A stretch of 52,473 nucleotides of DNA from Myxococcales bacterium. Lineage in GTDB: Bacteria > Myxococcota_A > Polyangia > Polyangiales > Polyangiaceae. Positions within the stretch are counted from its first letter, which is position 1. Each line of letters begins with the position of its first letter. A program made the translations under genes and the position numbers. The stretch covers positions 1-52,473 of the forward strand of contig JANXVA010000749.1 of the NCBI GenBank assembly GCA_025351875.1. The letters are read 5' to 3'. Below, in pieces: positions 5,961 through 31,908 of the stretch. The notes under the pieces were generated by a model. It searched no databases. It saw nothing but the letters and a program-made list of their open reading frames with translations, and was not told the DNA's origin.

Positions 5961-5963
5961 GGG

Positions 5964-6659: not shown

Positions 6660-6674
6660 CGTAGGGGTCAGTAT

Positions 6675-6690
6675 GTGAGCGAAAGCTCAC
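6675..6690. promoter_or_regulatory. Palindromic operator 1 (GTGAGC-N4-GCTCAC), coq4 side
   Basis: The sequence GTGAGCGAAAGCTCAC is a perfect dyad with 6-bp arms and a 4-bp centre, 15 bp upstream of the coq4-like start. The same motif with one mismatch recurs 90 bp away next to the TetR gene, which is the usual arrangement for an autoregulated TetR repressor controlling a divergent target. Confidence 0.72.
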
Positions 6691-6764
6691 CTTCACAACT
6701 CGCTTCCGGAGCCGGAGCGCACGGCTTGTTTTCTCGGGAGATCGGCGGTGCGCGTTGACCAAAA

Positions 6765-6780
6765 GCGAGCGAGGGCTCAC
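6765..6780. promoter_or_regulatory. Palindromic operator 2 (GCGAGC-N4-GCTCAC), tetR side
   Basis: GCGAGCGAGGGCTCAC is a second copy of the operator at 6675-6690 with one arm mismatch. It lies 9 bp upstream of the TetR ATG at 6790 and 4 bp downstream of a -35-like TTGACC at 6755-6760, so a bound repressor would block its own promoter. Confidence 0.66.
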
Positions 6781-6789
6781 ATTGTCGGG

Positions 6790-7425: not shown

Positions 7426-7451
7426 GCGGTCGAGCTCCGCGAAGGGCGCCG

Positions 7452-8825
7452 CTACTGTTCGACGACGAGACCCGGCCACGCCTGCCGACGATTGCCGTTC
7501 GTCGCGATGATCGTGAACGCGTGCGCGCCGCCGAGGAACGAGCCGTCCGTCACCGTCACAGTGACATGGAGCTTCTCTCCGTTGAGACCCTGCGTCCGGT
7601 CCCACGTGAACGCGAGCGACTTCGCGATGCCGTAAGCGCCGTAGGACATGTTGAGGAGATCCCCCGCCTTGACGGTGATCGGCCCGTTCGTTGGACCGTC
7701 GCTGAAGAGATCGACCTCGACCGTCGCGCTGCCGCCGACCGGGATGACGATCCCCTTCGTGGTCACGCTCCCCGTGAACGACGTCGAGAACGTGACGGTC
7801 TGCGAGAGCACCGGCGCGGCCCCGAAGTACGAGGCGCCCGCGATCACGGGAACGCACGGATCATGGCTCGCTCGCGCGGAGACGTTCGACCACGTGCGCT
7901 GCACGGCATAGCCGATCTCCGGCGGCGTGAATTCGATCGTGGGGCCTCCCGGCGCACAGATGTCCCCCGCCTCGCCGCCGCCGAGCAGCGACCACACGGC
8001 GTGGTCCTGATCGGGCGCGTAGAACGCGGCATGCGGCCCGCTCTTCACGCTGAAGGCGCCGTTTGCCGTGACCCACGGATCGGTGGCCGCCTCGACCCAC
8101 TCGTGGCTCATCACGCTGGTGAGCGAAGTGAGGTCCCCGTCACACGTGGGGATGACCGCGTAGGCGAACTCCGTGTTCGGGCCGGCGTCGTTCAGCGCGA
8201 CCGAGACGTTGTCGTGGTACCCGCTGAACCCCTTGCAGCTCGTGACCGGGCCGAACAGGTTCGTGATCGGATTGGGCTGCGTGATCGTCGTATCTGCCGG
8301 AAATACGAGCGTGTAGATCGTCTGCGTGTCGGGCACGCCGAGCTTGCCGCTCGCGAGGTGCTCGGCGAGCAGCGACCCGATCTGCGCCTGGGTGATGCTT
8401 GCCGGCGCGGTCTCTCCCGTGAGCTCGAACTTGCCCGCATACGACAGAGCACCGACGCCGTACTCGGCGGTCGTCGTCGACCAGTAGGTGGAACCTGCGA
8501 CCTTGCCTGCGAAGGCCTCGAGCTCGCTCGCGCGCGCGTCACCGGGGTAGAAGACGAAGGCGACCTTCGGCGCCGTGAGCACCGGTCCCTTCAGGGCATT
8601 CACGAGATCGGGCAGCGGGGGATGAGGAGCCGGGTAGATCGTCGAGGGCGCGCCATTGTCGAGCGCGACGGGCACCTGGCCGTCCGTCGCCGGGTCCCCG
8701 CCGTCGGTGAGGCCGCCAGGGGAGGCGTTCGCCGCAGACGAGGAGCCGCACGCGGCGAGTGCGGCAAGGGCAAGGGCCGGCGCGAGGGCCGCGAGGGGAC
8801 CGAGGAACAGGAGCACCCGCCGCAT
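7452..8825 (-). CDS. EXORDIUM-like secreted lipoprotein with HExxE site (457 aa)
   Basis: The lipoprotein signal ends at LAALAAC (Cys 26). The core carries MSHEWVEAATDPW (H241-E242...E245) and later GEAGDIC. This HE-x-x-E-x-x-T-D/N-P ... E-x-x-D-x-C arrangement is that of the plant phosphate-induced/EXORDIUM family and its bacterial relatives, thought to resemble metallopeptidases. Upstream, VAFVFYPGD and YWSTTTAEYGVG also fit the fold. The last 130 residues look like an appended beta-sandwich domain. It stands alone, convergent with tetR. Catalytic activity is not established for this family. Confidence 0.68.
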   Translation of the reverse strand: MRRVLLFLGPLAALAPALALAALAACGSSSAANASPGGLTDGGDPATDGQVPVALDNGAPSTIYPAPHPPLPDLVNALKGPVLTAPKVAFVFYPGDARASELEAFAGKVAGSTYWSTTTAEYGVGALSYAGKFELTGETAPASITQAQIGSLLAEHLASGKLGVPDTQTIYTLVFPADTTITQPNPITNLFGPVTSCKGFSGYHDNVSVALNDAGPNTEFAYAVIPTCDGDLTSLTSVMSHEWVEAATDPWVTANGAFSVKSGPHAAFYAPDQDHAVWSLLGGGEAGDICAPGGPTIEFTPPEIGYAVQRTWSNVSARASHDPCVPVIAGASYFGAAPVLSQTVTFSTSFTGSVTTKGIVIPVGGSATVEVDLFSDGPTNGPITVKAGDLLNMSYGAYGIAKSLAFTWDRTQGLNGEKLHVTVTVTDGSFLGGAHAFTIIATNGNRRQAWPGLVVEQ

Positions 8826-8918
8826 GGCCGAGTGGCTACCACGTCACGGTGGTGGAAGCGAACGCACGAACGCCTCGACGGCGGCGACACCGGCGAAGGC
8901 GATCTCGTGTGGACGGGG

Positions 8919-9653
8919 TCACATGATCTGGCTGAGATAGTGGAGTGCCTGCTTCTGCCACCACGGGTACGTGTGGCTGCTCTCGCGGCCCCAGAACGCG
9001 AGGTGATGAGGGATGTGCTTTCGCTTCAGCACGGCGCCGAGCTCGCCGGTCTCCGGGATGCAGCTCTCCTCGTGTGCGCCGCGACCGACGACCAGCGTGA
9101 GGTGGGCGTACTTCCTCACGCGTTCGAGCGCAGGCCCGCGGAGGTTGGGAACGAAGGCGAGCGGGTCGTTCATGTAGACGTCGTGGTTGCTGTTGCCGTC
9201 GAAGAACTTGCTCGTCCGGTAGCGCCCCGAGAGGCAGAGCGCGTGCGCGAAGACCTCCGGGTGCTTCAGCACGAAGATCGACGAGTAGAGCGCGCCGACG
9301 CTGCAGCCCGTGGCCACCATCCGAACGCGGGGCATGCGACAGTCCTCGCGGATGAACGGGACGAGCGTGTTCATCACGAAGCTCTCGTAGGCCGCGTGGT
9401 GCGCCATGCGCTGGGTCATGCTGCCGGTCCCGGAGAAGCTCTTCGAGACGTTCGTCTCCGGGCAGTAGATCTTGACCTTCCCGGCCGCGAGCAACGGAGC
9501 GAGCGCGTCGATCATCCCGCTCTCGCGCCACTCGTGCGCGACTCCCGCGTTCGACGGAAAGACGATCAGAGGGCGCCCGACGTCGCCGAAGGACCAGAGG
9601 TGAACGCGGCGGCCGAGGGAGGGACTGTCGAGGAGACGATGCTTCGCGCTCAT
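8919..9653 (-). CDS. Alpha/beta-hydrolase, esterase D-type (244 aa)
   Basis: An alpha/beta-hydrolase of the putative esterase (EstA/esterase D-like) family. The nucleophile elbow reads ATGCSVGA (GxSxG with S118), the oxyanion side has PLIVFPSNAG, and the C-terminal His lies in GRESSHTYPWWQK. There is no signal peptide, so it is probably cytoplasmic. Length is close to that of esterase D-like proteins. Substrate unknown; carboxylester or S-acyl substrates are typical. Confidence 0.82.
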   Translation of the reverse strand: MSAKHRLLDSPSLGRRVHLWSFGDVGRPLIVFPSNAGVAHEWRESGMIDALAPLLAAGKVKIYCPETNVSKSFSGTGSMTQRMAHHAAYESFVMNTLVPFIREDCRMPRVRMVATGCSVGALYSSIFVLKHPEVFAHALCLSGRYRTSKFFDGNSNHDVYMNDPLAFVPNLRGPALERVRKYAHLTLVVGRGAHEESCIPETGELGAVLKRKHIPHHLAFWGRESSHTYPWWQKQALHYLSQIM

Positions 9654-9717
9654 GGTGGGCCGCAGCGCGTATCACGCGCCGCGTCGGGGATCGAGAAGTG
9701 TCCCTTCGCTGCCTGCG

Positions 9718-10035
9718 CTAGGGCGTGGCGATGCGGTGGGCGCAGGCGTCGATGCCGGGAAGGTCCGTTGCAGTCGTGCATTCCTTCGCGCACCTCTGGG
9801 TGCAGAGCCCCGGGTCGTTCTCCGGGTGAACGCCGCACGCGAGCGCGCACTGCTGCGCGACGAGGGAGGCCTTTGCCGACTCGGCCGGGCCGCCTTGCGC
9901 GGACGCGAGGCCCGCGTCGACGACGCCGACGCCGGCCCCCTCGCGACTCTTGACGGTCGGACGCGGAGCGTCTTCCTCCTTCTTCGCGCAGGCAGCGAGG
10001 AGCACCAGGCTGACGAGGAGGATGCGCGCGATCAC
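9718..10035 (-). CDS. Small Cys-rich lipoprotein (105 aa)
   Basis: The signal MIARILLVSLVLLAAC has a clean lipobox (Cys 16), then a charged linker (KKEEDAPRP) and a C-terminal domain with six cysteines (QCALACG, LCTQRCAKEC, IDAC) that probably form three disulfides. No family recognised. A surface or periplasmic location is inferred from the signal. Confidence 0.66.
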   Translation of the reverse strand: MIARILLVSLVLLAACAKKEEDAPRPTVKSREGAGVGVVDAGLASAQGGPAESAKASLVAQQCALACGVHPENDPGLCTQRCAKECTTATDLPGIDACAHRIATP

Positions 10036-10170
10036 GCGAACGAGACTATCCGAGTCCGGGCCGTCGTCGACCGAGGTCAGTCGTCGGTCGCGAGGCGCGC
10101 GTCGTAACGGACCTGCGGCCCGATCTCGCTCCGGAGCCTCGGGAGGTGCCGCTGGACGCGCCCCGTCGGT

Positions 10171-10890
10171 TCACGGACAGGTCGTGGTCGAGACGCAGCC
10201 GTTGAGGCCGTTGCCGTTCGCGTTGCAGCCCCCACCGGTGCAGACGAGATCACATGTCCTGCCGCCGCTGGGGACCGTGCCGTCGGTCGCCATGCATGCT
10301 GGGTTTCCGCCGATGGCGTCGCACTTCAAGCAGAGCGACGCCGCATTCGCCGCGCTCAGGTTCACGGCGACGCACGCCGCTTCGAAGCCCGTGCAGTCGA
10401 GTCGGCACGCTCCGCTCCCGCATTCGAGGCTCACCATCTCGCAGGCATGCTCCTGGGAGCATTCGACGCGACACGAGGTGGCTTTGGCGCACGAGATGGG
10501 GCGCTGCGAACAGACGTCGGTCGCGTTGCACGTGACATGACAAGGCAAGCCCGGCGGGCAGGTGACCGGGTTCGCGCAGGGGTGCGTACCGTCGCACAAG
10601 ATGTTGCACGTCGTGCCCGTGCAGCTCGTGCAGGCCGCCGGGCACGTGAAGGCCGCGCCGTCCGGTGCGACGCTGCCGTCGTCCCCGATCACGATCTCGC
10701 CACCCTCACCGAACGCCGGGTTGCCGTCGCTCGCCGCGCTGTCGTGGCCGGAGCCTTCGGCGGTGCCCGCCTCCAGGTCGCTGACGACCGCGGCGGTGCC
10801 CGCGCCGATGAAACCGCATGCCGCCAGCACAGCGCCCACACCGACGACGACGGCCCCAGCTACGAGCCTGGAACTTCGCGACGCAGCCAT
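10171..10890 (-). CDS. Cys-rich lipoprotein (239 aa)
   Basis: The start at 10890 gives a signal with lipobox VLAAC (Cys 25). An acidic Gly/Asp linker (residues 40-80) leads to a domain with more than 20 cysteines in short C-x-x-C-type spacings (CPAACTSCTGTTCNILCDG, CHVTCNATDVC, CRVECSQEHAC). This is the style of many Myxococcota surface lipoproteins with no known function. The frame is open further upstream, but only with Arg-rich shadow sequence. Confidence 0.75.
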   Translation of the reverse strand: MAASRSSRLVAGAVVVGVGAVLAACGFIGAGTAAVVSDLEAGTAEGSGHDSAASDGNPAFGEGGEIVIGDDGSVAPDGAAFTCPAACTSCTGTTCNILCDGTHPCANPVTCPPGLPCHVTCNATDVCSQRPISCAKATSCRVECSQEHACEMVSLECGSGACRLDCTGFEAACVAVNLSAANAASLCLKCDAIGGNPACMATDGTVPSGGRTCDLVCTGGGCNANGNGLNGCVSTTTCP

Positions 10891-10942
10891 GAGTGGATTG
10901 TAGCTGGGATGTCTCCGGCGTGCCGTAGCCGCGGTCGACTCC

Positions 10943-11701
10943 CTAGACGCCCGACGTCTTGCCGGTCGGCGCGGCGCTCTTCTTCGTCGCGGGCTTCTTG
11001 ACGACGCTCTTCTTCGCGGGGCCCTTCTTCGTCGTCGGCTTCGTCGTCGCAGCAGCTTCGCTCGGTGCGCCGGTCTCCTCGGTCGTCGTCGCAGGCGGCC
11101 CATCGGTCACCGGCACCGGCGGTGCGGGGACCGGCACCGAAGCGCTTGCGACCTCGATCTTGGGGCTCGAGACGGACCCGTCATTGGTGAGCTCGGCGAC
11201 CTCGCGCGCGATGAGCTCGCCGTCGTCCTTGTTCTTGGTGGTCTCGTGGATGAAACGAACCGTCCCCTTGCCGTCGAGGATGTACGTGGACGGCATCTTC
11301 GCGACGCTCCACTTCCACATGAGCGTGTGATTTTCGTCCCAGGCGATCGGAAAGGAGACGCCCTGTGCCTTCGCGAAGTCGGCGACACCGCGCGGCGTGT
11401 CATCGACGGCGATGCCGATCACCTCGATCGCGCCTCCGCTCTGCTTGCTGAGCTGCTCGAGCTGGGTCAGGGACTTCTTGCAGGGCTCACACCAAGTCGC
11501 CCAGAACTGGACGATCGCGACCTTCCCGGACATCGCGTCGAGCGACACAGCCCCCCTTCCGTTGAGCGACTGGATCGTGAGAGCGGGGGCCAGCTTACCC
11601 ACCTCACCCGCTCCCCTGGCGGGACCGACCGCGCCACCGCACGCGGAAATCATGAGGGAAAATGCGACGAAGGCGAGGGCTCGAAGGGGGAGGGATGACA
11701 T
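10943..11701 (-). CDS. TlpA-like thioredoxin lipoprotein with Lys/Ala-rich tail (252 aa)
   Basis: After a lipobox (LMISAC, Cys 21) comes a TlpA/ResA-like domain: APALTIQSLNGRG, VAIVQFWATWCEPCKKSL with redox pair C71/C74, and a cis-Pro in AKMPSTYILD. It probably reduces disulfides or matures cytochromes outside the cytoplasm. The last 80 residues form a low-complexity tail, Pro/Val/Thr-rich and then histone H1-like (KKGPAKKSVVKKPATKKSA). That tail is unusual on a thioredoxin; it could bind polyanions at the surface or be a flexible tether. Confidence 0.85.
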   Translation of the reverse strand: MSSLPLRALAFVAFSLMISACGGAVGPARGAGEVGKLAPALTIQSLNGRGAVSLDAMSGKVAIVQFWATWCEPCKKSLTQLEQLSKQSGGAIEVIGIAVDDTPRGVADFAKAQGVSFPIAWDENHTLMWKWSVAKMPSTYILDGKGTVRFIHETTKNKDDGELIAREVAELTNDGSVSSPKIEVASASVPVPAPPVPVTDGPPATTTEETGAPSEAAATTKPTTKKGPAKKSVVKKPATKKSAAPTGKTSGV

Positions 11702-21855: not shown

Positions 21856-23019
21856 TCAAACCGGAGCTGCGGACGACGCGCGTGCGTCGTTGGCGAGCGC
21901 CTCCACCGCGCTTGCGAACGCCTTTGCGGCGACCGCAATCGGCGAAAACGCCGTCAGCGTGTCGTCCTGCGCGATGTGCTCACAGAGAAGCGGCGAATCG
22001 ATCCGCGCCAGGACCGCCGCCTTCGGATTGTGGGTGCGGGCGATGAGCGCGATCTGGAGGTTGCTCGCGTCGCTGTCGGTGAGCGCGAGGATCCCGCGCG
22101 ACTTGTGGCCACCCGCGAGAGCGAGCGTCTCGTCGCGGGTAGCGTCTCCGATCACGACGTGGTGACCCGCGAGCCTGAGCGCGTGAAGCGTTCGTGTGTG
22201 CTCGTCGCGTTCGATGATGATGACCCGCATCTCCTTCTCCCGAAGGAGCGCCGCCACGCGGACCGCCATGTTCCCGGCCCCAGCGATGACGAAGTGACCT
22301 CGCCATTTCGTGGGGATCCGCCCCATCATGCGCTCGAGCCTGCGGGCGAACATCCAGTCGGCCGCGAGAGCGAAGAGGATCGCGAACGAGCACGTGCCGC
22401 TGACCATGAGAGCGACGCACACGACCTTCACCGAGCCAGAAGCATCCTTCGGGGTGATGTCGCCATAGCCGGTCGTCGTGATCGTCGCGACGACGAAGTA
22501 GAGGGCGTCGGCTACCCCCAGGTTCATCGCGAACTTGAAGTAGACGGTGCCGAGCGTGACGAGGAGCGCGATCAGCACGAGCATCGCCGCGAATGTCCTG
22601 TCCGGGCGCCCGCTCAAGGAGACCGTACCTGCGCTCGTGTGAAACGACCCTTCGAGGGCCCCGGCGAGGGCCTCGAGAACGAGAGGCGCCGCCACCGCGG
22701 ACATGCTCATGACGCGAATGTCCGGAGCATTCCGCTCGAGGTAGTCCTCCAGGATGGGATCGAACACGCGAACGACGATGTGGAGATCAGGCTTCATGCG
22801 CTTGGCGAGAAGCGCCGTCTCGAGGTTGTCGGCGTCCACATCCGAGACGATGACCAGCGCCTCGAGGCCGTCGAGATTCTCGATGCCCTGGACTCGACGT
22901 GGTGCGTGGCCGCGATCCGCGAGCGCCTGAATGACGGCGGTGGCCAGCGGCCCTGCGCCGAGAATCCCGATTTCCAGCGACGCCCGGTTCAAGCGTTTTG
23001 ATGTATCACAGCGGCGCAT
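21856..23019 (-). CDS. Two-TM potassium channel with N- and C-terminal RCK (TrkA-N) domains (387 aa)
   Basis: The selectivity filter TTTGYGDITP (residues 181-190) sits between two hydrophobic helices (FAAMLVLIALLVTLGTVYF and VVCVALMVSGTCSFAILFALAA). A C-terminal RCK/TrkA-N domain begins GHFVIAGAGNMAVRVAALL and has the acidic IIIERDE at strand 2. A second Rossmann-type domain precedes the pore (LEIGILGAGPLATAVIQALA). RCK-pore-RCK is a less usual order than pore-RCK. No TrkA-C domain is obvious. The ATG at 23019 overlaps the ATG of the divergent cupin gene. Confidence 0.87.
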   Translation of the reverse strand: MRRCDTSKRLNRASLEIGILGAGPLATAVIQALADRGHAPRRVQGIENLDGLEALVIVSDVDADNLETALLAKRMKPDLHIVVRVFDPILEDYLERNAPDIRVMSMSAVAAPLVLEALAGALEGSFHTSAGTVSLSGRPDRTFAAMLVLIALLVTLGTVYFKFAMNLGVADALYFVVATITTTGYGDITPKDASGSVKVVCVALMVSGTCSFAILFALAADWMFARRLERMMGRIPTKWRGHFVIAGAGNMAVRVAALLREKEMRVIIIERDEHTRTLHALRLAGHHVVIGDATRDETLALAGGHKSRGILALTDSDASNLQIALIARTHNPKAAVLARIDSPLLCEHIAQDDTLTAFSPIAVAAKAFASAVEALANDARASSAAPV

Positions 23020-23686
23020 GGTCGAACCTCTCTGGCTACGGGAGCTCTCACCGACGTTCGACTGGCAGTCCGTGGCCGCTCCGACGCGTGTTCGAGCCTG
23101 GAACCAGAGTGCCCTCGAGCTCTCGAGCGAGGGCACGCACTACGTCATCGCCCATGCAGGTACGTCGACGCTCGAGCGTTCGAGCGGCACGTTTCCGCTC
23201 GCCGCGGGCGCGTTCGCCTCCGCTCCTGGCGCGGCCGTCCTGAACGGCGCCGCGACGGATGGCGCGGGCCTCGTCATCACCCACTCCGGCTACGCCGGCG
23301 TCTTCCAGCTCGGCGGGCCGATCGAGGCGACGGGACGTCTTCGGTACATCGACGGTTGTACCGACTCGCTGCTGCTCGCGCCTCCCGTGCTCGGTGACCC
23401 CTGTCTGAACCACCTCCACATCCCTGCGGGCACCACGCAGACGAGGCACGTGCATCCTTCGATCCGCGTCGGCATGATCGTGCGGGGCGAGGGGATCTGC
23501 GTCACGCCGGACCGCGAGCTGTCCCTCCGTCCCGGTCTCGCGTTCATGATTCCGCCGGGCGAGCTCCACAGTTTTTCTACGGGTGCTTCGTCGCTCGACG
23601 TCGTCGTCTACCACCCGGACAGTGACACCGGCCCGACTCATCACGACCACCCGATGCTGAACAAGACCTTGATTCGCGGTTCATGA
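23018..23686 (+). CDS. Cupin-domain protein (222 aa)
   Basis: The C-terminal half is a cupin: LNHLHIPAGTTQTRHVHPSIRVGMI holds the H-x-H-like metal motif, and LSLRPGLAFMIPPGELHSF the second motif with its His. The tail HHDHPMLNKT is His-rich. The N-terminal half is a degenerate beta-barrel, so it is a bicupin-like protein. Metal binding is likely; the substrate is unknown. It converges on the flavin monooxygenase gene, whose stop overlaps this one by a few bases. Confidence 0.8.
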   Translation: MVEPLWLRELSPTFDWQSVAAPTRVRAWNQSALELSSEGTHYVIAHAGTSTLERSSGTFPLAAGAFASAPGAAVLNGAATDGAGLVITHSGYAGVFQLGGPIEATGRLRYIDGCTDSLLLAPPVLGDPCLNHLHIPAGTTQTRHVHPSIRVGMIVRGEGICVTPDRELSLRPGLAFMIPPGELHSFSTGASSLDVVVYHPDSDTGPTHHDHPMLNKTLIRGS

Positions 23687-24796
23687 ACCTTTGCGCATGG
23701 ACCGGAGGTAGCCCTCGCGAACCAACGGAAGGACGTGGCGGCCGACGTTTTCGCACTCTTCGAGGTGCGGATAGCCGGACAGAATGAAGCAGCCGATGCC
23801 GAGCGCGACGTACTCGAGCAGCATCGCGGCGACCGCTTCGTAGCTTCCGACGAGCGCCATGCCGGCGCCGCTGCGCACGACCGAGATCCCCGCCCAGAAC
23901 CCGGGGCTCAGGTACCAGTCTTCGTCCGCCGTTCCGCGAAACTCCCACTGCCGTCCCTGGCCGACGCTCTGCCGCCTCGTGTTCGGGAAGGAGGTGCGCC
24001 GCCCCTTCTCCAGCGCCTCCGGCGAGACCTTGCTGATCATCTCCCGAGCGACGTCGCGCGCCTCCTGCGAGGTCGTGCGTGCGATCAGGTTGATGCGGAG
24101 TCCATAGCGCACTTCGTTCGTCCGGCCCTCCGCCTCGACGAGCCTCCGCATGCTGTCGATTCGCTCGCGGATCTGCGCGAGCGGCTCACCCCACATGAGA
24201 TAGACATCGGCCCACGCGGCACAGACGTGGGTCGCCGCTTCGCTGGCGCCGCCAAAGTAGAACGCGGGACCTCCGTGCTGCCTCGGGAACATCTCGAGCC
24301 GCGTCTGCTTGAGCGAGTGAAACTCACCCTGGTAGTCGAACGCCAGCGGGGTCGACCAGAGCCGCCGACAGATCTCGAGGAACTCCCGGGTGCGCCGGTA
24401 GCGGGCATCGTGATCGAGGTAGTCGCCGTACATCGCCTGTTCGTCGGGGCGTCCGCCCGTCACGACATTGAGGGAGAGGCGCCCCTGGCTGATGTGATCG
24501 AGCGTCACCACCATCTTCGCCAGGACCGGAGCGGAGAAGAACCCGGGCCTCACCGCGACCATCGCACCGATGCGTTCCGTCGAAGCGAGCACCGCGGTGG
24601 CGAGCGTCCATGCTTCGAGATCATGGTTGTCGAAGCCCATGCCGAACAGCAGATGCACGAATCCGTGCTGCTCTGCGGTCCTTGCGATCGCGACCGCGTA
24701 GTCCAGGGTCGGCGGCCGCTCCCAGGAGGGGAGGCCGAGATGCAAGCCGTCGCCCGCGACGGGAACGCACCAATGAAACTCCAGGCGCGCGCTCAC
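23681..24796 (-). CDS. Luciferase-like (LLM/SsuD-type) flavin-dependent monooxygenase (371 aa)
   Basis: This is a TIM-barrel LLM-family enzyme of the alkanesulfonate monooxygenase type: EFHWCVPVAGDG at strand 1, GFDNHDLEAWTLATAVLAST, AVRPGFFSAPVLAKMVVTLD, GRLSLNVVTGG, and PAFYFGGASEAA. It uses FMNH2 from a partner reductase (none encoded here) to oxidise its substrate. The GTG start at 24796 shares bases with the stop of the upstream asparagine-synthetase-like gene (GTGA), so its synthesis is coupled to that operon. Homology points to C-S cleavage or N/C oxidation, but the operon suggests a dedicated substrate. Confidence 0.88.
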   Translation of the reverse strand: MSARLEFHWCVPVAGDGLHLGLPSWERPPTLDYAVAIARTAEQHGFVHLLFGMGFDNHDLEAWTLATAVLASTERIGAMVAVRPGFFSAPVLAKMVVTLDHISQGRLSLNVVTGGRPDEQAMYGDYLDHDARYRRTREFLEICRRLWSTPLAFDYQGEFHSLKQTRLEMFPRQHGGPAFYFGGASEAATHVCAAWADVYLMWGEPLAQIRERIDSMRRLVEAEGRTNEVRYGLRINLIARTTSQEARDVAREMISKVSPEALEKGRRTSFPNTRRQSVGQGRQWEFRGTADEDWYLSPGFWAGISVVRSGAGMALVGSYEAVAAMLLEYVALGIGCFILSGYPHLEECENVGRHVLPLVREGYLRSMRKGS

Positions 24797-26430
24797 GTGA
24801 ACTGCCTCAGGTACGACTCGAGGGCCACGAGGAGCCAGATCTTCACGCCGCGTCGAGGCCGGAGCCCCAGGACCTTGCCGTCGACCAGCGCCTCCACCGC
24901 GCTCTTGCGGAGGATGTCCCAGGGCAGTGCCCCGCCGAGCAAGCGTTCGCGCGCGTGCGGGAGGAGCGGACCCTGGAACCACCCTTCCACCGGCACCATC
25001 ATGCCGCTCTTCGGGCGGTCGACGATGGCCGAGGGGAGGAGGTCACGGACGGCCTCCTTGAGCGCGTACTTCTCCACGGAGCCGCGAAGCTTCAGCGAGG
25101 GCGGGAGGCGCGAGGCGAACTCGACGACGCTCTTCGTGAAGAGGGGAGAGCGCGGACGAACACCCGCAGCCTGCGAGAGCTGGTCCACCTTGGGCAGGAT
25201 GTGGTGGCCGCCCTTCCAGATGACGTTGATCTCCGAGAGCGCTCCGACGAACGAGCGGCCTCCCTCGAAGTAAGGGTTCACTTCGAGCTCGAGCGGGGCT
25301 TCCGCGACGGCCGCGAGGGCCTGCTCGGTGAGCAGCGACGAGAGCTCGTCGAAGCACTTCAAGTGCGCGCGGTAGTAGCTCCGTGCGCGAGGGCTCGACT
25401 CATCGGTGTCGTTCTCCCCGTCGCCGTAGAGCTCGGCGAGGACCATCGGCAGGTTCTTGGGACCGCCGAACAGCGGGTCGCCGCCCTCGCCATTCCAGAC
25501 GTACGGCGCGAGCTCGCGCGCCTTGCGGAAGAGAATCGCGTTCGGAACGGTCAAGGGATCGCCGATGGGAGACGCGAGGAACGCGTGCGTCTCGTCGAGG
25601 CTCGCGAGAATCGCCTCCGGAGTCAGGTGCACGATGGTGTGCTCGCTCCCGACGTGCCGCGCGACCATCGAGCTCCACTCGAGCTCGTTCTTGTACTCGG
25701 CGCCGAAGGCAATGGAGAGCGTATGCAGCGGTCGCCCGAGAGCGCGCTGCACGAGCGCGACGACGATGCTCGAGTCGATCCCGCCGGAGAGGGAGGCCGC
25801 CGCCTCTTGCTCGGGGTCGAGGTTGTCGCGGATGGTCGCTTCGAGGAGCGACCGCAGGTCCCGGATCGCCTCCTTCTCCGTCTCCTCGGACCACGTCTCG
25901 TCGTCGCACTCGGGGGGAAGCGAGAAGAACCGGCGCTCGTCGTAGCCATCCCTGGTGCAGGTCAACGTGTGACCAGGGAGGAGCTCCTTGACGTCGCGGA
26001 AGAGCGTGCCTCGGCCAGGAATGTAGGCGCAAGACAGGTAAGCCGCGAGGGCGCGCGGGTCGAGCGTCCTCGACGCGCCGCTCTGGTTCAAGAGCGTCTT
26101 GATGTCCGACGCGTACGCGAAACCGGCGGGGCTCTTCGGTGCGTAGAAGAGCGTGCGATGCCCGATGGCGTCGCGGGCGAGTTGCAGACGGTCCGGCTCA
26201 TGAACCGCGAGCTGAAACGCTCCATCCACACCGGCGAGCTCGTCTGCGGCTGCAATCTCTCGGAGCCGCGAGAGCGAGAGAATGCGCTCCGCGCCTACCC
26301 GGCACGCGTCGATCGTACCGGTGACCGCGGTCTGCCCGGCCGAGAACGTTCCGCTGAGCGCCGGCGCCACGGTCGCCGGGGGGAGCGCCCGCAGGGTGGC
26401 TTCGTCGCAAACGACGACGCTCTCAGCCAA
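24793..26430 (-). CDS. Asparagine-synthetase-like amide ligase 2, glutaminase site absent (545 aa)
   Basis: The C-terminal synthetase domain is intact: PPi-loop SLSGGIDSS (residues 213-221), WNGEGGDPLFGG, and RPKSGMMVPVEGWF. The N-terminal domain is shortened to about 155 residues, begins MAESVVVCDE and lacks the catalytic Cys at position 2 and the NGE motif, although RDAIGHRTLFYA survives. Such proteins (beta-lactam synthetases, lasso-peptide cyclases) use ATP to adenylate a carboxylate and couple an amine other than Gln-derived ammonia. It overlaps its upstream neighbour by 8 bp and its downstream one by 4 bp. It is clearly a paralogue of the first operon gene. Confidence 0.87.
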   Translation of the reverse strand: MAESVVVCDEATLRALPPATVAPALSGTFSAGQTAVTGTIDACRVGAERILSLSRLREIAAADELAGVDGAFQLAVHEPDRLQLARDAIGHRTLFYAPKSPAGFAYASDIKTLLNQSGASRTLDPRALAAYLSCAYIPGRGTLFRDVKELLPGHTLTCTRDGYDERRFFSLPPECDDETWSEETEKEAIRDLRSLLEATIRDNLDPEQEAAASLSGGIDSSIVVALVQRALGRPLHTLSIAFGAEYKNELEWSSMVARHVGSEHTIVHLTPEAILASLDETHAFLASPIGDPLTVPNAILFRKARELAPYVWNGEGGDPLFGGPKNLPMVLAELYGDGENDTDESSPRARSYYRAHLKCFDELSSLLTEQALAAVAEAPLELEVNPYFEGGRSFVGALSEINVIWKGGHHILPKVDQLSQAAGVRPRSPLFTKSVVEFASRLPPSLKLRGSVEKYALKEAVRDLLPSAIVDRPKSGMMVPVEGWFQGPLLPHARERLLGGALPWDILRKSAVEALVDGKVLGLRPRRGVKIWLLVALESYLRQFT

Positions 26431-27502
26431 AGCTGTCGCCTCCGCCGTCGGAGGTTCCGACGTCCGAGCCGCCGAAGGAGCCGCCCACGAAGAAGATGCC
26501 GCCGTCGTCCGTGGTCACCTGGGTCCCGGGCTGGGTCATCGCGCGGAAGAGGCGCTTGATGACCTGCTCCGGGCGAATCGCAGCGAGCTCCAGGGCATAA
26601 ACGGAGAGCCACGCGTTCTCCTCCGCGGTGAGATCTCCGAATGCCCTCGGCGTCGTCTGACGCGAAGCGCTCCAGAGACCTCGCAACCTGGCGGCGTGCT
26701 TCACGAGGATCCCGACGTCGGTGACGCGCCCGATGCCGCGAAACCACTCAGGCGACGTGGCGAGCTTGCGCGCGAGCTCATGGCCCTCGGCGCTCGCGTC
26801 GTGGAGCGCATAGACCTCGATCTTCGGATTGCGCCGCAGCATCTCGAGCACCGGCCCGAAGACGGCCTCCGGATATCCGGTCACCGAGAGGATCGCGCAG
26901 TTGTTCTCGAAGTGGAAATTGTTCGCGAGCAGGAGATCGACGGTCTCCGGGCGATCGCAGATGACCGCGCGATCGAACGAATACGTTGCGAGCTCCTTCG
27001 CGAGCGGCGCCTTCCGCCCCGTCGCGCTTGCGGGCGCCGCGCGCTGCACGAGCTTCGAGGGCGTTCCATGCGCCGCGCTCCACTTGTCGAGCAACGACGA
27101 GAACGTGGGCTGGGTGAGCGCGGGTGTCGGGTTCGGCTTGGCGCGGAGTCCGAGCACGATGCCACTCACCGCGACCGCAAGCGCTACGACGAGGAGCGCG
27201 ATGCTCCCCGAACCAACGGCGGCCAACGTTCCCAGCACGAGGCCCAAGAAGCCGATGGCCAGGAAGACGACCTTCTTGGCATTGGTGCGCCTCCCCGCTC
27301 GGGCGAGCTCGTAATAGAGGTTGGTGTGCGTGAACCGCACGGCGTCATGGGCCGAGACGCGGTCGATGGCGGCGGCGAAGGCCGGGTCCGTGAAGGGATC
27401 GCCCGACTTCGGCTCGAAGGCGAAACGCGCCCGGCACTTGGGACAGGTGCCGCCCGACCGCTCGCTGTACTTGGAGTCCGTCTGGCACTTGATGCACTTC
27501 AC
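26423..27502 (-). CDS. Membrane protein: zinc ribbon, two TM helices, Toprim-like domain (359 aa)
   Basis: From GTG 27502 (GTGA overlap with the gene before), a CxxC-x13-CxxC ribbon (C3, C6, C20, C23) leads into RFTHTNLYYELARAGRR (residues 56-72), then two transmembrane helices (about 77-97 and 100-119). Residues 175-250 read AVICDRPETVDLLLANN, ILSVTGYPEAVF, IEVYALHDASAEGHELARKL. This resembles the Toprim fold of topoisomerase VI A/Spo11-type proteins (acidic strand, GYP loop, DxD strand), with the second Asp replaced by Ser. The C-terminal 30 residues are Gly/Ser/Asp-rich. The Toprim reading is an inference. Its position between two amide ligases implies a role in the same pathway. Confidence 0.66.
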   Translation of the reverse strand: MKCIKCQTDSKYSERSGGTCPKCRARFAFEPKSGDPFTDPAFAAAIDRVSAHDAVRFTHTNLYYELARAGRRTNAKKVVFLAIGFLGLVLGTLAAVGSGSIALLVVALAVAVSGIVLGLRAKPNPTPALTQPTFSSLLDKWSAAHGTPSKLVQRAAPASATGRKAPLAKELATYSFDRAVICDRPETVDLLLANNFHFENNCAILSVTGYPEAVFGPVLEMLRRNPKIEVYALHDASAEGHELARKLATSPEWFRGIGRVTDVGILVKHAARLRGLWSASRQTTPRAFGDLTAEENAWLSVYALELAAIRPEQVIKRLFRAMTQPGTQVTTDDGGIFFVGGSFGGSDVGTSDGGGDSFG

Positions 27503-29259
27503 GAGGCCTTCCCTTCCACGACGTGTCGGACCCACGCCTCGAGCATGATGAGCGCCCACACCTTCTCGCCGATCCGGCGCTTTCGTGTCTCGCCGGGGCG
27601 ATCGTTCCCCTCACGCAATTTGGCGACGTGGTCCTTGCGAAACCAGCCGCGTGCGGCGACCGCGCGGTCACCCACGTACTCCTCCATGACGTCGCGAAGA
27701 GGCCCGGCAAGCCAGTCGGTCATCGGCACGCTCATGCCGGCCTTCTTCCGCCAGATGATGTCCTCCGGCAGTCGCCCTTGCATCGCGATCTTCAGAACGA
27801 ACTTCTCGCATGCTCCGTTCAGCTTCATCTCCGCCGGAAGGTGGAACGACAGCTCGGCGAGCTTGCGGTCGAAGAGCGGCACGGACACCGTGAGTCCCAA
27901 GCCCGCGGCGATGCGCTCGGCACGCGGCAAGATGTTCTGCGAGCCCTTGAGCGCGATGTCGGCGAGGCGGACCCGGCTGAGGAAGCTCTTGCCACCCTCG
28001 GCCGAGAGGTAGGGAGCCAGGTGGGCGCGGCGCTGCCCGGGCCCACCCACCGCCTCGCGGAACGAATCCGTGTAGAGTGCATCTTCCGCGCCGTAGAAGC
28101 GGTGGTAGGAGCGCAGGTAGGTCTCCTCGCGTGATTCATCGGCGTTCGAGGCGGATGCGATGCCGCCGAAGATCTCAGCCGCGATCATCGGCTTGTTGGT
28201 CCAGCCGCCGAACAGCTGATCGCCACCTTCGCCGTTCAGCACGTGCTTCAGCCCCTGCGCTCTGGCCGCGAGCCCGAGCATCATCTGGGGACCGGTGACG
28301 ATGTCGCCGAACGGAAGGTCGAGCATCCCCGCGAGCTCGGGGACCTTGGGGCCGAGGTCACCTCCGTTCATCGGGACGAGCAGATGCTTCTGGCCCACGG
28401 TCTTCGCGACGAGCTCCGCCTCCGCGCGCTCGATGCTGTGCGCGCCGAAGTCGAGGGTGAGCAGCGTCGTGTCCGTGCCGCGGGATTTGAGCCACACGGC
28501 CATGGCCGAAGAGTCGAGGCCGCCGGAGAGGTAGAGCGCGACCGGCTCGCCATGGGCGACGCGATGGGTGACGGCTGCCTTCGCGACCTCTCGCAGGGCT
28601 TCGACCGCCGTCGTTCGATCGCGGAAGGCTTCCTGCTCCTTCTCCTCGAGCACGAAGTACGCCTTCGTCTTCGGAGGACCGAGCTCCTCGAAGGTCGCGA
28701 TGTTCCCGGGCAGAACGCGCTTCACACCGCGGATCGGCACCGCCTCACCGGGGACGAACGAGAACGTCAGGTACTTGTGAATCGCGGAGAGATCGATCTC
28801 CCGAGAGCAATCCGGAACGGCCAGTAGCTGCTTCAGCTCGGACGCGAAGTACACGGCGTCCTTCCCGGTGAAGTAGTACAGCGACCGCACGCCGAAGGGA
28901 TCACGGAGCAAGCGCAGGCGCGCGCCGTCGTTGTCGACCCACGCGACCGCGAACGCGCCGTCGAGCTCCGTCGTGGCGCTGGCCGTCTCCAGCGCGAGCC
29001 GCAGTCCATGCAGACTGTTTCCGGTAGGTGAGATCACCGAGCCGGCGTGGGCGAGGAGACCGCCGCGGTCGGCGATGATCTCTCCGTCGTCTCTCGACGC
29101 CCAGTTGTGGATCCCGAGGGTCACGTTTGGCCCTTGCTTGACCTCCGACGCGTCGCCTCGATAGGCGACGCGCGTGAGCATCGAAGAGACGAGCTCGGCG
29201 TCCTCTCTCGAGGACCCTGCTGCCGCGCCCGGTCGCCAGATTCCGCAAACGGCGCTCAC
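27499..29259 (-). CDS. Asparagine-synthetase-like amide ligase 1 (586 aa), first gene of operon
   Basis: The protein starts (GTG) MSAVCGIWRPG, so the glutaminase-type Cys is at position 5 and would need removal of four residues to become N-terminal. VAYRGDAS preserves the Arg of the glutamine pocket, but the NGE(I)YN motif is replaced by HAGSVIS. RDPFGVRSLYYF and the synthetase motifs are good: YLSGGLDSS (243-251), LNGEGGDQLFGG, WRKKAGMSVPMTDW. It could make an amide using Gln, or a different amine if the glutaminase is weak. It is tandemly related to the third operon gene. Confidence 0.87.
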   Translation of the reverse strand: MSAVCGIWRPGAAAGSSREDAELVSSMLTRVAYRGDASEVKQGPNVTLGIHNWASRDDGEIIADRGGLLAHAGSVISPTGNSLHGLRLALETASATTELDGAFAVAWVDNDGARLRLLRDPFGVRSLYYFTGKDAVYFASELKQLLAVPDCSREIDLSAIHKYLTFSFVPGEAVPIRGVKRVLPGNIATFEELGPPKTKAYFVLEEKEQEAFRDRTTAVEALREVAKAAVTHRVAHGEPVALYLSGGLDSSAMAVWLKSRGTDTTLLTLDFGAHSIERAEAELVAKTVGQKHLLVPMNGGDLGPKVPELAGMLDLPFGDIVTGPQMMLGLAARAQGLKHVLNGEGGDQLFGGWTNKPMIAAEIFGGIASASNADESREETYLRSYHRFYGAEDALYTDSFREAVGGPGQRRAHLAPYLSAEGGKSFLSRVRLADIALKGSQNILPRAERIAAGLGLTVSVPLFDRKLAELSFHLPAEMKLNGACEKFVLKIAMQGRLPEDIIWRKKAGMSVPMTDWLAGPLRDVMEEYVGDRAVAARGWFRKDHVAKLREGNDRPGETRKRRIGEKVWALIMLEAWVRHVVEGKAS

Positions 29260-29308
29260 GCTGTGTTCCCCATGGTCGGACTCTACAAATCTCCAAAGCC
29301 GAGCACCA

Positions 29309-29324
29309 CGTCGAAGACTCGACG
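29309..29324. promoter_or_regulatory. Palindrome CGTCGA-N4-TCGACG in the divergent promoter region
   Basis: A perfect dyad with 6-bp arms lies in the 79-bp gap between the asparagine-synthetase-like operon and the divergent gene at 29339, 14 bp from that gene's ATG. It is positioned to control either or both promoters. Confidence 0.42.
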
Positions 29325-29338
29325 ACGTAGAATGAGGT

Positions 29339-29926
29339 ATGCCGCAAGCGCCCGATCAGCAGCGCCTCAGCGACGAGGAGCTCGAGGAGGTCGTCGAAGA
29401 AATCGCGAAGGACGAGGCGCGAGAGGGGGCCGGCGTCTCGCGGAGTGAGGCGCGCGAGGTGCTGCGCGAGCTCGATCTGCCTGCGGAAAAGCTCGACGAA
29501 GCGGCGGTGAAGGTCCGCGAGCGTCGCGAGGCGCAGGCCCTCGAGAAGAGCCGAAAGAAGCGAGCGCTGCTCCTCGGCGCAGGCGTTCTCGCGCTGGTCC
29601 TCTCGGCCGGCGTCGGTGTTGGACTCTGGACGCAAGCGAGCGCCGCCAAGGTGGCCCGAATCACGGCGGCAGAGCCGGTGCTGAGCGAAGAGGCCGGTCA
29701 GCTTCGCTTGTCGGCGAAGCTCATGAGCGCGCCGAGCGGCGAGAGCGTTCCGATGAGCTGCACGTGGCGCAGCCCAGAGGGCGCGCTCCTCCAGGAGAAT
29801 GCGTGGCAGACCAAGCCGGTGAGCCACGACGCGTGGGAGACGCACTGCGTCCTCAAGAGCGCGCCTGTGCACGTGAAGGTCGCGATGACGGCGCACGGCC
29901 GCGTCGTTGCCGAGTCCTCTCGCTGA
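29339..29926 (+). CDS. Single-TM protein with charged N-terminal domain (195 aa)
   Basis: The ATG at 29339 follows AATGAGGT. Residues 1-75 are Glu/Arg-rich and helical (LSDEELEEVVEEIAKDEARE, EAREVLRELDLPAEKLDEA). A transmembrane helix (KRALLLGAGVLALVLSAGVGVGL) crosses to an extracytoplasmic beta-type domain with a Cys pair (SCTWRSPEG, THCVLKS). No family recognised. It is divergent from the four-gene operon and shares its promoter region. Confidence 0.68.
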   Translation: MPQAPDQQRLSDEELEEVVEEIAKDEAREGAGVSRSEAREVLRELDLPAEKLDEAAVKVRERREAQALEKSRKKRALLLGAGVLALVLSAGVGVGLWTQASAAKVARITAAEPVLSEEAGQLRLSAKLMSAPSGESVPMSCTWRSPEGALLQENAWQTKPVSHDAWETHCVLKSAPVHVKVAMTAHGRVVAESSR

Positions 29927-29962
29927 AGCTGACGCGGGGAACAGTCCTGGTGGAGACGAGAG

Positions 29963-30958
29963 CTACGGCGGGCAGGTCGTGCACTTGCAGCACGGCTCGT
30001 CGCAGTCCTCGGGGAACTCGTCGCAGTCGGCGTTGACCATTCCTCCGCACGCTGCCGCGAGCGGCTTGCAGTGGGTCCCCGCGCACGCCGCTTTGCCGGC
30101 GCATACGGTCTCGCCGCAGCAGCCCAGGTCATTGCATGTCGATGCCGTGCACGGACAGCACTCCTGGAATGGCGGGAAACCGACGCCCTTCGTCACCGAG
30201 TGATCGCCGTTCGGACACTTCGCGGAGTCGCCGGAGCCGGTCGGGCAAACGCAGCCCGGATCGAGGCCCGCGGGAGCGCACGCGTTCTGGCAGCACGCGG
30301 CGGTGATGCACGCGAAGAGATCCGAGCAACCGATGAGGCCGTTGCAGTTGCTGTCGATCGCGCCGCAGCAGTCCTCCGCGACGGGAACGACCTGACCGGT
30401 GCACGTCGCCGACCACTTGCCGGCGACGCACGTCTGAAGTCCGTCCTTGCATGCGCCGCGGTTCTCGGTGCCCGCAGCGCCGTCGTAACAAGCGCGCGTC
30501 TGACCCGCGGTGCAGCCCGTGTCGCAGACCGGATCCTTCGCGCATGTGGGGTCGTCGCAGCCGACCTTGGCGTTGCAGTTGCCATCCACGGTGCCGGTGC
30601 AAGCCTGCGGCGTCGGCGTCACGTCGCCGACGCAGTTGCCCCAGCTCGAGAACTCACCGGTCCCGGTGCAGGTCTGCGTACCGTCCTTGCATGCGCCAAC
30701 GCCCCGCGTTCCGACGGCACCCGAGTAGCAGGGCTGCGTCGCCCCGCGCGCGGGGCACGGGCATCCCGCGAGGTTGGTGCTCGCGGCGCTGCAGTCCGGA
30801 GGTGCGCTTGCCGCGGCGTCGCCGAGCGAGCCGAGGGACCCGGCCGGACCAGCTTCGGCGCCCGCATCATCTGCGGTGAACGTTGCGCGGGACGAGCCAC
30901 ATCCGGCATGGAGCGCACACGCGAGCGCAATCGACAGGGCAGCGACGATTCTTCTCAA
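29963..30958 (-). CDS. Cys-rich lipoprotein with two CYxGAxGT...GACKDGxQTC units (331 aa)
   Basis: I place the start at TTG 30958: AGGAG lies 9 bp upstream and the signal RRIVAALSIALACALHAGC then begins at once. The GTG at 31006 would add 16 residues before the signal. The mature protein has two copies of a unit (PCYSGAVGTRGVGACKDGTQ and ACYDGAAGTENRGACKDGLQ) plus NCN and CDDPTC motifs, seen in myxobacterial tandem-repeat surface proteins. More than 40 cysteines. Probably a disulfide-rich outer-surface protein. Confidence 0.75.
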   Translation of the reverse strand: MRRIVAALSIALACALHAGCGSSRATFTADDAGAEAGPAGSLGSLGDAAASAPPDCSAASTNLAGCPCPARGATQPCYSGAVGTRGVGACKDGTQTCTGTGEFSSWGNCVGDVTPTPQACTGTVDGNCNAKVGCDDPTCAKDPVCDTGCTAGQTRACYDGAAGTENRGACKDGLQTCVAGKWSATCTGQVVPVAEDCCGAIDSNCNGLIGCSDLFACITAACCQNACAPAGLDPGCVCPTGSGDSAKCPNGDHSVTKGVGFPPFQECCPCTASTCNDLGCCGETVCAGKAACAGTHCKPLAAACGGMVNADCDEFPEDCDEPCCKCTTCPP

Positions 30959-31140
30959 AGTCCAATCTCCTGCTCCCGCGAGGGCGAAGCTGGCTGGACT
31001 TAGCACGCGTCGTTCTTTCCGCTCCTTACAGCTGGCGTACCGCAGCTGGCGTAGTCGCCGCGCGGCGCAGAGCCGAAAAGGCCGCGACCCTAGGAAACTT
31101 TGGCGGCCGCGGGCGGGTCGCTATCCTTCTGGGACGTGCC

Positions 31141-31908
31141 ATGACGTTTTCGAGCGAGGAGACGAAGGCGTTCCACGAACATGGGTTCGTCATCAGGCGT
31201 GCGCTCTTCGGCGAAGACGAGGTGCAGGCAGCCCGCGTTGCGCTCGAACGGCTCTACGCCACGGCGCAGACGCTGAGCGCCACCGGCGATCACGGCGGCG
31301 CGTTCTTCGCGCTCGGCAAGTCTCCGCACGGCGCGGTCGTCGTGCAGCGCGTGGTGTGGGCGGGAGGCGCGGAGCCCGTGCTCCTCCGCCTCAGCGAGGA
31401 TCCGCGGCTCGTCGCCCCTGCTCTCGAGCTCCTCGGCACCTCGCACTGCGAACAGCTCCTCTGCCAGGCGCACTACAAGATGCCGAACGACGGCGTCGCG
31501 TTCGACTGGCACCAGGACGTCCAGCATCGCGACAAGGGCGGCGACACCTGGCGCGACGTCAACGGCCGCGGCTCGTTCGTGCAGACCATCCTCCTCGTCG
31601 ATGACATGACCGACGAGAACGGTCCTCTCGAGTTTGTCCCCCTGGATGCGGTGACCGTGGACGCCTCGTGCCGACTCGTGAAGGAGAGCGTCGACGCGTC
31701 GCGCGCGGTGTCGGTGACGGGACGCGCGGGCGACGTGCTCTTCTTCGGTCCTTACGCCGTGCACGGGAGCGTCCCGAACCAGTCGCACCGGCCGCGCCGC
31801 GTGCTCATCAACGGCTACGCCGCGCCGGGCGCGAACAAGCGGTTCTATCCAGGCGACGGCGCCTGCCGCACGCTGCCGGCAGCCATGCCGATGCGCAGGA
31901 CCGGCTGA
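31141..31908 (+). CDS. Phytanoyl-CoA dioxygenase (PhyH)-like Fe(II)/2-oxoglutarate enzyme (255 aa)
   Basis: The facial triad is visible: W-H124-Q-D126 and H208 in YAVHGSVPNQS, followed by a basic stretch HRPRR that would hold 2-oxoglutarate. The N-terminus (ETKAFHEHGFVIRRALFGED) and LLCQAHYKMP also match PhyH. Family members hydroxylate or halogenate small molecules. There is no neighbouring biosynthetic gene to point to the substrate. The ATG is preceded by a plausible GGGACG. Confidence 0.87.
   Translation: MTFSSEETKAFHEHGFVIRRALFGEDEVQAARVALERLYATAQTLSATGDHGGAFFALGKSPHGAVVVQRVVWAGGAEPVLLRLSEDPRLVAPALELLGTSHCEQLLCQAHYKMPNDGVAFDWHQDVQHRDKGGDTWRDVNGRGSFVQTILLVDDMTDENGPLEFVPLDAVTVDASCRLVKESVDASRAVSVTGRAGDVLFFGPYAVHGSVPNQSHRPRRVLINGYAAPGANKRFYPGDGACRTLPAAMPMRRTG

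Follow-up and report, generated by a model that had tools for sequence, protein, structure and literature searches.

The stretch of DNA analyzed here, which we call the window, is the 52,473-nucleotide contig JANXVA010000749.1 of a Myxococcales bacterium (assembly GCA_025351875.1), and our subject is a run of four genes on its minus strand, g1 to g4 (Table 1). Direct reading of the sequence agrees with the coordinates originally predicted for the four genes and with the overlap of each stop and the following start: GTGA at 27499-27502 (4 bp), TTGGCTGA at 26423-26430 (8 bp) and GTGA at 24793-24796 (4 bp). To call this a "fully overlapping operon", as was done at the time, is loose wording for what are ordinary short start/stop overlaps. 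A Pfam and NCBIfam scan assigned g1 and g3 to Asn_synthase (PF00733), with GATase_7 matched weakly and through the C-terminal half only, and g4 to Bac_luciferase (PF00296), the family of the luciferase-like monooxygenases (LLMs); the nearest NCBIfam model to g4, SsuD (TIGR03565), scored 310 bits, under its cut-off of 518, and window g2 matched no Pfam or NCBIfam model. The gene set is wider than four, a cupin gene and a gene for a small membrane protein also belonging to it; the real start of the cupin probably lies 3' of position 22931, because homology mostly begins near residue 43.

Table 1. Genes and features of the system in the window.
Feature	Position	Strand	Description
g1	27499..29259	-	Asparagine-synthetase-like ligase, GEGGDQ clade, glutaminase nucleophile lost; PF00733 at 198 bits
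g2	26423..27502	-	GTG start; Zn ribbon, membrane hairpin, Toprim-fold domain (supported, not proved), predicted disordered tail
g2 tail codons	26426..26506	-	Residues 333-359 (pLDDT under 50); TTT GGC at 26426-26431 encodes the terminal Phe-Gly
g3	24793..26430	-	TTG start; asparagine-synthetase-like ligase, GEGGDP clade, shortened glutaminase-like domain; PF00733 at 195 bits
g4	23681..24796	-	GTG start; SsuD-like luciferase-family (LLM) monooxygenase
Cupin	22931..23686	+	Convergent with g4, 6-bp overlap
Small membrane protein	29339..29926	+	Divergent from g1; N-terminal helices, one transmembrane segment, beta-sandwich, two nearly invariant Cys
K+ channel-like protein	21856..23016	-	TrkA_N - Ion_trans_2 - TrkA_N; adjoins the window cupin

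Because g2 is the unusual part of the set, it was used as the search query. A single search found a match in 5 of 96 relatives, the source genome counted, and a g2 profile matched 29 of 377 genomes of the phylum, again with its own included. A scan of species genomes identified 172 that encode g2 relatives, from which 79 loci were kept, and 30 of 292 sampled cyanobacterial genomes contained a match (one of these being a fragment). Records with the system carry the titles Myxococcota, Cyanobacteria, Planctomycetes, Acidobacteria, Armatimonadetes and Proteobacteria; beyond the first two these are mostly metagenome-assembled genomes, and some of the titles are plainly unreliable. The cyanobacterial carriers include Nostoc, Calothrix, Oscillatoria, Microcoleus, Okeania and Crocosphaera.

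Asparagine-synthetase-like genes are present at nearly every g2 locus that we fetched (98 stretches, given L numbers here, among which are several pairs from the same contig, such as L055/L094, L058/L093 and L063/L102). Loci with two ligases usually read g1-g2-g3 plus a cupin, or decarboxylase-g1-g2-g3; the cyanobacterial order is membrane protein-g1-decarboxylase-g2, with g3 usually on the opposite strand, and a simpler type of locus combines a single ligase with g2 and usually a cupin. In all 24 of the two-ligase pairs listed, which come from loci numbered below L103, the 4-bp overlap of g1 and g2 is retained. It had been allowed from the start that the neighborhood might be unique to this strain and its overlaps unconserved; instead, the neighborhood recurs across phyla and the overlap is kept. 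The operon in the window is the local copy of a conserved gene system of several bacterial phyla, in which asparagine-synthetase-like ligases around g2 form the conserved core and g2 is the constant part. The initial observation was right, yet understated. We found no description of this gene set in the open-access literature searched, a scope outside which most subscription papers fall.

Inspection of the ligases upheld the original reading that both keep the ATP/pyrophosphate loop and have altered glutaminase domains. The SGGxDS motif of the PP-loop and the Glu are intact in 72 of 72 g1 and 62 of 62 g3 proteins, and the catalytic Lys is present in all 72 g1 proteins and in all 60 g3 proteins that reach its column (two have gaps there). 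The glutaminase nucleophile Cys, in a column that is poorly aligned in g3, is absent from 71 of 72 g1 and 60 of 62 g3 proteins, occurring in one and two of them, respectively, and in none of 10 single ligases; the NGE motif of the glutaminase is not conserved, which places the proteins outside the AsnB pattern. (One contig is represented twice, as L068 and L148, in these counts and in the tree described below.) With PP-loop, Glu and Lys intact and the nucleophile gone, the ligases would therefore be expected to adenylate a carboxylate and to use free ammonia or another amine. An error in the start codon was rejected as the source of the altered glutaminase domain: the codon before Cys5 of g1 is GTT, which is no start, and NGE is lost clade-wide.

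The two ligases differ consistently at one residue, the motif being GEGGDQ in 72 of 72 g1 proteins and GEGGDP in 62 of 62 g3 proteins and likewise in 10 of 10 single ligases. A phylogenetic tree of 62 ligases shows g1 (25 of 25, support 0.987) and g3 (24 of 24, support 1.0) to be each monophyletic across phyla, and 10 single-ligase proteins group with g3 (0.989). Because each clade is monophyletic and the single ligases join g3, the two look like old paralogues that have traveled together. Among relatives of solved structure, a "hydroxyamidotransferase" (7ylz) ranks best for g1 and for g3 alike, and g3 further matches beta-lactam synthetase and CarA. One locus of the source genome with two AsnB-like genes (L015; G000:C93:12000-28000) was considered as a second copy of the system and rejected, its neighbors being radical-SAM-like and glycosyltransferase-like and the source genome having one g2 match. 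At positions 6793-11604, that locus holds a canonical MCGI asparagine synthetase, a partial second one, two radical-SAM-like genes and glycosyltransferase-like genes (labels by reading), and looks like a separate biosynthetic cluster.

The g2 protein consists of a Zn ribbon (C3, C6, C20, C23), a two-helix membrane hairpin (approximately residues 75-120), a putative Toprim-fold domain (approximately 174-275) and a tail that ends in GGGDSFG. In an AlphaFold2 model, the mean predicted local distance difference test score (pLDDT) is 89.6, and residues 333-359 fall under 50. A Foldseek search with this model returned topoisomerase VI-A first (1d3y, probability 1.00, E 0.029) and nothing at E ≤ 0.001, while a solved-structure search with g2 gave one weak match to an RNA-polymerase zinc ribbon. 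Two of six g2-family proteins passed the 24.1-bit cut-off of TOP6A-Spo11_Toprim (PF21180; L105 at 27.4 bits and L110 at 24.5); L106 and L071 scored under it, and L022, L066 and window g2 gave no match. Of the original label, "Zn-ribbon/Toprim-like membrane protein", the membrane association through g2 stands, and the Toprim fold of the C-terminal domain is supported, not proved. The likeness to topoisomerase VI-A and Spo11 would be one of fold: g2 has lost the acidic DxD pair, and a membrane hairpin and Phe-Gly tail are added. At what we take to be the positions of the Toprim E...DxD motif, the first acid (position 183) is Asp in 60 and Glu in 6 of 70 family members, and the second acid of DxD (position 237) is acidic in one of 70. 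Because the metal-binding DxD is lost, g2 is probably not a nuclease.

What is new here, and had escaped the initial observation, is that g2 terminates in Phe-Gly at the very end of a tail that is predicted to be disordered. Among 122 distinct g2 hits (132 before identical tails of the last 120 residues were merged), 101 end in this way, most commonly as DSFG (45 of the 101). Once hits shorter than 250 residues or cut by a contig end were removed, 97 of 108 members carried the dipeptide. Of these 108, 98 have a ligase no more than 6 kb away, and 93 of them end in Phe-Gly; among the other 10, 4 do. All 23 previously unseen g2 sequences of a further cyanobacterial sample also end in Phe-Gly, a sample that is not independent, its sequences being relatives of those counted before. 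At its final two positions g2 shows an identity of 0.90/0.90, against at most 0.30 in g1, g3, the cupin and the decarboxylase; the "invariant" F358 and G359 of one alignment (A3) arise by selection and are no evidence, since it was built from Phe-Gly enders only. Packing does not explain the conservation, because the tail is disordered in the AlphaFold2 model. The ending is kept where the Zn ribbon is missing (L019, L020) and where a hydrophobic segment was not found (L061), and where g2 occurs as tandem paralogues the intact ones each have it (L107, L110, L115, L121, L132, L139). Tandem g2 paralogues, plus several broken copies, are also seen in Okeania (L147, 10001-16542). The conserved end suggests that g2 itself is the substrate or carrier of the ligases.

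In the window, the codons for this dipeptide, TTTGGC, enclose the TTG start codon of g3 (26423-26431, with TTG at 26428-26430). That Phe-Gly is a by-product of the overlapping g3 start was considered and rejected: cyanobacterial g3 is usually on the other strand, and the ending persists. Five loci with g2-like proteins that do not end in Phe-Gly (L064, L066, L067, L071, L072) have no ligase match within 6 kb and form natural negative controls.

The remaining parts of the system are interchangeable. A ligase lies within 6 kb of g2 at 89 loci; a pyridoxal-phosphate (PLP) decarboxylase is present at 56 of them, a cupin at 20 (the window counted), both at none and neither at 13, L059 being scored among the last despite a cut cupin at its contig edge. 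This mutual exclusion is not merely phylum-wide, because acidobacterial and myxobacterial titles fall on both sides. The decarboxylase resembles diaminopimelate decarboxylase, although all three proteins tested scored 245-260 bits against a TIGR01048 cut-off of 297.9 and so fall outside that equivalog; its solved relatives include BtrK (named as such in the PDB), an enzyme that acts on a protein-tethered amino acid. Prediction of the decarboxylase substrate gave no result, and a search with the cupin gave weak matches only. At five loci with betaproteobacterial titles (L087, L089, L090, L092, L101), several genes for solute-binding proteins, presumably TctC-like, flank the system and replace the decarboxylase or the usual cupin.

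The LLM is an accessory, the decarboxylase or the cupin being the usual partner. It occurs with the system at three loci only: the window, Nostoc mirabile (L107, 70% identical to g4) and Dulcicalothrix (L139, 66%), with orthologues at no other fetched locus. At both cyanobacterial loci it adjoins an amidase-like gene, so labeled by sequence reading, and the two amidases are 57% identical to each other. The idea that g4 is a housekeeping SsuD was rejected, since among seven LLM matches in Nostoc mirabile the system copy is 70% identical and the next best 43%, and since 58 relatives, the source genome included, gave only three others, at 38-41% (E ≤ 1e-30). At 46 of 98 loci, a homologue of the small membrane protein is encoded no more than 6 kb from g2. 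The TrkA_N channel is found that close at six, the window and five others, recurring in records titled Acidobacteria and in one cyanobacterium; its gene is rare, with matches in 3 of 58 relatives including the source genome at E ≤ 1e-25, and it is a possible optional member of the system.

The conserved C-terminal Gly, the glutaminase-less ligases and the amine-forming decarboxylase are jointly read most simply as an amine that is joined to g2 and processed there. Consistent with a carrier, the decarboxylase, as the expected producer of the amine, is the commonest extra gene at g2 loci. We therefore propose tentatively, and at somewhat less than an even chance, that the ligases activate the C-terminal Gly of g2 and join to it an amine made or modified by the decarboxylase, cupin or LLM. 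In this scheme g2 would be a membrane-anchored carrier, and hence a substrate, whose Toprim fold without catalytic acids would serve as a platform and whose flexible, presumably cytoplasmic tail would display the terminal Phe-Gly. The ligases would activate the carboxylate of the last glycine and couple an amine to it, with g3 or the single ligase, both of the GEGGDP type, as the likelier candidate for this role, and g1 as second ligase may form a further amide bond. The diaminopimelate-decarboxylase-like PLP enzyme or the cupin would supply or modify the amine or the tethered product; the LLM would be added as a flavin monooxygenase in the window and the two cyanobacteria, and in the latter the amidase-like protein could release the product. 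The gene set and its conservation, the tail, the active sites of the ligases and the mutual exclusion of decarboxylase and cupin are observed directly; we infer the covalent attachment, the identity of the amine, the order of the steps and the final product.

More broadly, the system may represent a third, unrelated class of protein-tethered biosynthesis, which we think possible rather than probable: glutaminase-dead asparagine-synthetase-like ligases would load amines onto the Phe-Gly of a membrane pseudo-Toprim carrier, with interchangeable decarboxylase, cupin and LLM modules, in about one in ten sampled cyanobacterial genomes and under at least five other phylum titles; the K+ channel might serve to read the product. 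Genes now annotated as "asparagine synthase-related" and "hypothetical" in filamentous and nitrogen-fixing cyanobacteria, myxobacteria and others become one testable system, and the atom to test is the carboxylate of the last g2 glycine. Should a molecule prove to be attached there, the carrier class would be new, and so would this use of the asparagine-synthetase fold; without attachment, the tail still marks an unrecognized protein family with conserved partners across phyla.

Several observations weigh against a carrier. Its chemistry is read from sequence and a structural model. Five g2 members near a ligase do not end in Phe-Gly, namely that of Enhygromyxa (L068, EELD), three Streptomyces plasmid proteins (L022) and a frameshifted Crocosphaera protein (L152); outside the 108, L076 ends in SGLQ despite its flanking ligase and cupin, and the weak relatives L077 and L078 also lack the ending. 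Conversely, four members with Phe-Gly have no ligase within 6 kb (L018, L121 twice, L142). The small membrane protein likewise has a conserved C-terminus (FxVK), which lies within a predicted folded strand. The lineages have no release enzyme in common, the amidase-like gene being found at two loci only, and a membrane protein of about 360 residues is much larger than the LysW or pearlin scaffolds. As a separate observation, L022 (Streptomyces sp. NBC_01237 plasmid, 5534-11212) has its three g2-like proteins in tandem beside a GEGGDP-type ligase and appears to be an actinobacterial variant.

A conserved C-terminus can also be a non-covalent docking signal, and docking by the tail is the chief alternative to a carrier. 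Phe-Gly would then dock or regulate, g2 would gather the ligases at the membrane, and a free small amide would be made, for instance a signal or osmolyte read by the TrkA_N channel. C-terminal motifs often dock, g2 would suit as a membrane scaffold, and the channel recurs beside g2 though its gene is rare among relatives. However, in 97 of 108 members the motif stops exactly at the carboxylate, the group that asparagine-synthetase-like enzymes target in known cases among ribosomally synthesized and post-translationally modified peptides (RiPPs), and additional residues beyond the Gly might be tolerated in a peptide that only docks. We consider docking possible, if unlikely.

Those cases come from enzymes acting on ribosomal peptides: PesC, with glutamine as nitrogen source, forms an amide and then a nitrile at the C-terminal carboxylate of its peptide, and TsrC and ScdTA amidate theirs (PMC13060819). 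As there, an asparagine-synthetase-family enzyme is found next to a ribosomal protein whose C-terminus is conserved, and by analogy the C-terminal carboxylate would be adenylated; unlike there, g1 and g3 lack the glutaminase nucleophile and are usually paired, and in place of a short precursor they are accompanied by a membrane protein of about 360 residues with a putative Toprim fold. The same enzymes lend support to an alternative in which modified g2 is itself the end product, with a C-terminus that is amidated or nitrilated by free ammonia, which PesC can use (PMC13060819), or joined in ubiquitin-like fashion to a protein or lipid, with no carrier cycle. We judge this improbable: it leaves both the exclusion of decarboxylase and cupin and the presence of the LLM unexplained, and no family of deconjugating enzymes was seen across lineages among the 33 neighbor families that occur in at least four loci after clustering of the predicted genes of the 98 fetched stretches (labels assigned by reading, with no hidden Markov models).

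A carrier as proposed here would resemble, and differ from, three kinds of known system. In LysW the globular part binds Zn, and an amino-group carrier of this type is acidic and has about 54 residues, a C-terminal EDWGE and an ATP-grasp ligase. Such carriers are loaded at the gamma-carboxylate of the C-terminal Glu through an amide bond, and pearlins hold a building block at the C-terminal carboxylate by an amide, the block being appended, modified and then released (PMC9303977 for both). Like LysW and Vzb22, g2 combines a globular part with a conserved C-terminal extension and would, by analogy, hold a building block as an amide; unlike them it ends in Gly (Phe-Gly) and its ligases are asparagine-synthetase-like (PF00733), which sets it apart from the LysW type. 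The C-terminal carboxylate as the proposed loading site is shared with the pearlins and their PEARL ligases (TglA, TmoA, AmmA). PEARLs, which are truncated lantibiotic dehydratases, use aminoacyl-tRNA, a peptide carrier and an encoded protease, features not seen at the system. No PEARL or pearlin family appeared in the Pfam and NCBIfam scan of nine window proteins (21856-31908), nor among the neighbor families, which were read rather than scanned. The butirosin side-chain pathway offers a PLP fold-III decarboxylase (BtrK) and an LLM monooxygenase (BtrO) that act on a protein-tethered amino acid; it has no asparagine-synthetase-like ligase, and diaminopimelate decarboxylase is the closer relative of the decarboxylases at this system. 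The butirosin carrier, BtrI, is an acyl carrier protein that tethers through a thioester.

The original prediction had likened the genes to beta-lactam and lasso peptide pathways, and we weighed a conventional natural-product pathway in which the ligases build a soluble metabolite, the LLM oxidizes it and g2 is incidental. Such clusters do contain asparagine-synthetase-like ligases, the system and the LLM orthologue are found together in two phyla, and a short-chain dehydrogenase/reductase (SDR) family, found in 11 loci, lies within 6 kb of g2 in 10, mostly of the same cyanobacterial lineage as a peptidase-like family (S66-like by reading) confined to that single lineage (7 loci). Against this, g2 is constant, the LLM is found at three loci, and among the 33 neighbor families, which beyond the core parts are mostly lineage-bound, we recognized no nonribosomal peptide synthetase (NRPS) or polyketide synthase and no exporter or peptidase family common to several lineages. 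The suggested search for a conserved small precursor or an NRPS nearby came up empty across lineages: among 4407 small open reading frames (22-90 residues, 88 loci), the ten largest families listed are all from single lineages, with a maximum of 8 loci, although a fast-changing precursor could be missed. Among these families and reading frames, we recognized no shared precursor, leader peptidase, NRPS or exporter of the kind expected of a lasso peptide, beta-lactam or other RiPP cluster. We rate this pathway as doubtful, marginally more so than a modified end product, and the likeness to beta-lactam and lasso pathways was not borne out. The accompanying idea of a dedicated pathway survives in part: the conserved unit, two ligases with intact catalytic residues, the membrane link through g2 and an oxidase in some copies speak for it, and its natural-product type does not hold up. 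A defense system was also rejected, a PADLOC search with nine proteins (E ≤ 0.01) giving only a weak QueC match (4e-4) on g1.

That the genes are chance neighbors in a single strain, as the presence of g2 in 0 of 11 same-genus genomes might hint, is already refuted by 98 loci under several phylum titles and by the monophyly of the g1 and g3 clades, and absence from the genus fits an island. None of those 11 genomes holds g2, the LLM or the channel at the thresholds used. In G009, a single contig carries relatives of two genes that flank the region; they have the same orientation and stand 14.8 kb apart, with different genes between them; the left flanking gene is from a common family, which makes its orthology uncertain. 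The absence from the genus and the flanks in G009 fit an acquired island.

Among the other neighbor families, an ABC ATPase occurs in 7 loci and a large kinase/regulator-like family in 24, no more than 6 kb from g2 in 3 and 19 of them, respectively. The SDR gene adjoins g3 in L105 (11693-12490) and L106 (13478-14302), as befits either a generic family or an optional partner; we tentatively take both the SDR and the kinase/regulator families to be generic. Finally, the minus strand of the window at 29963-31006 encodes a secreted-looking, Cys/Gly-rich protein whose relatives occur close to the system at seven further loci (two of which are the same contigs), a resemblance that may reflect low-complexity similarity.

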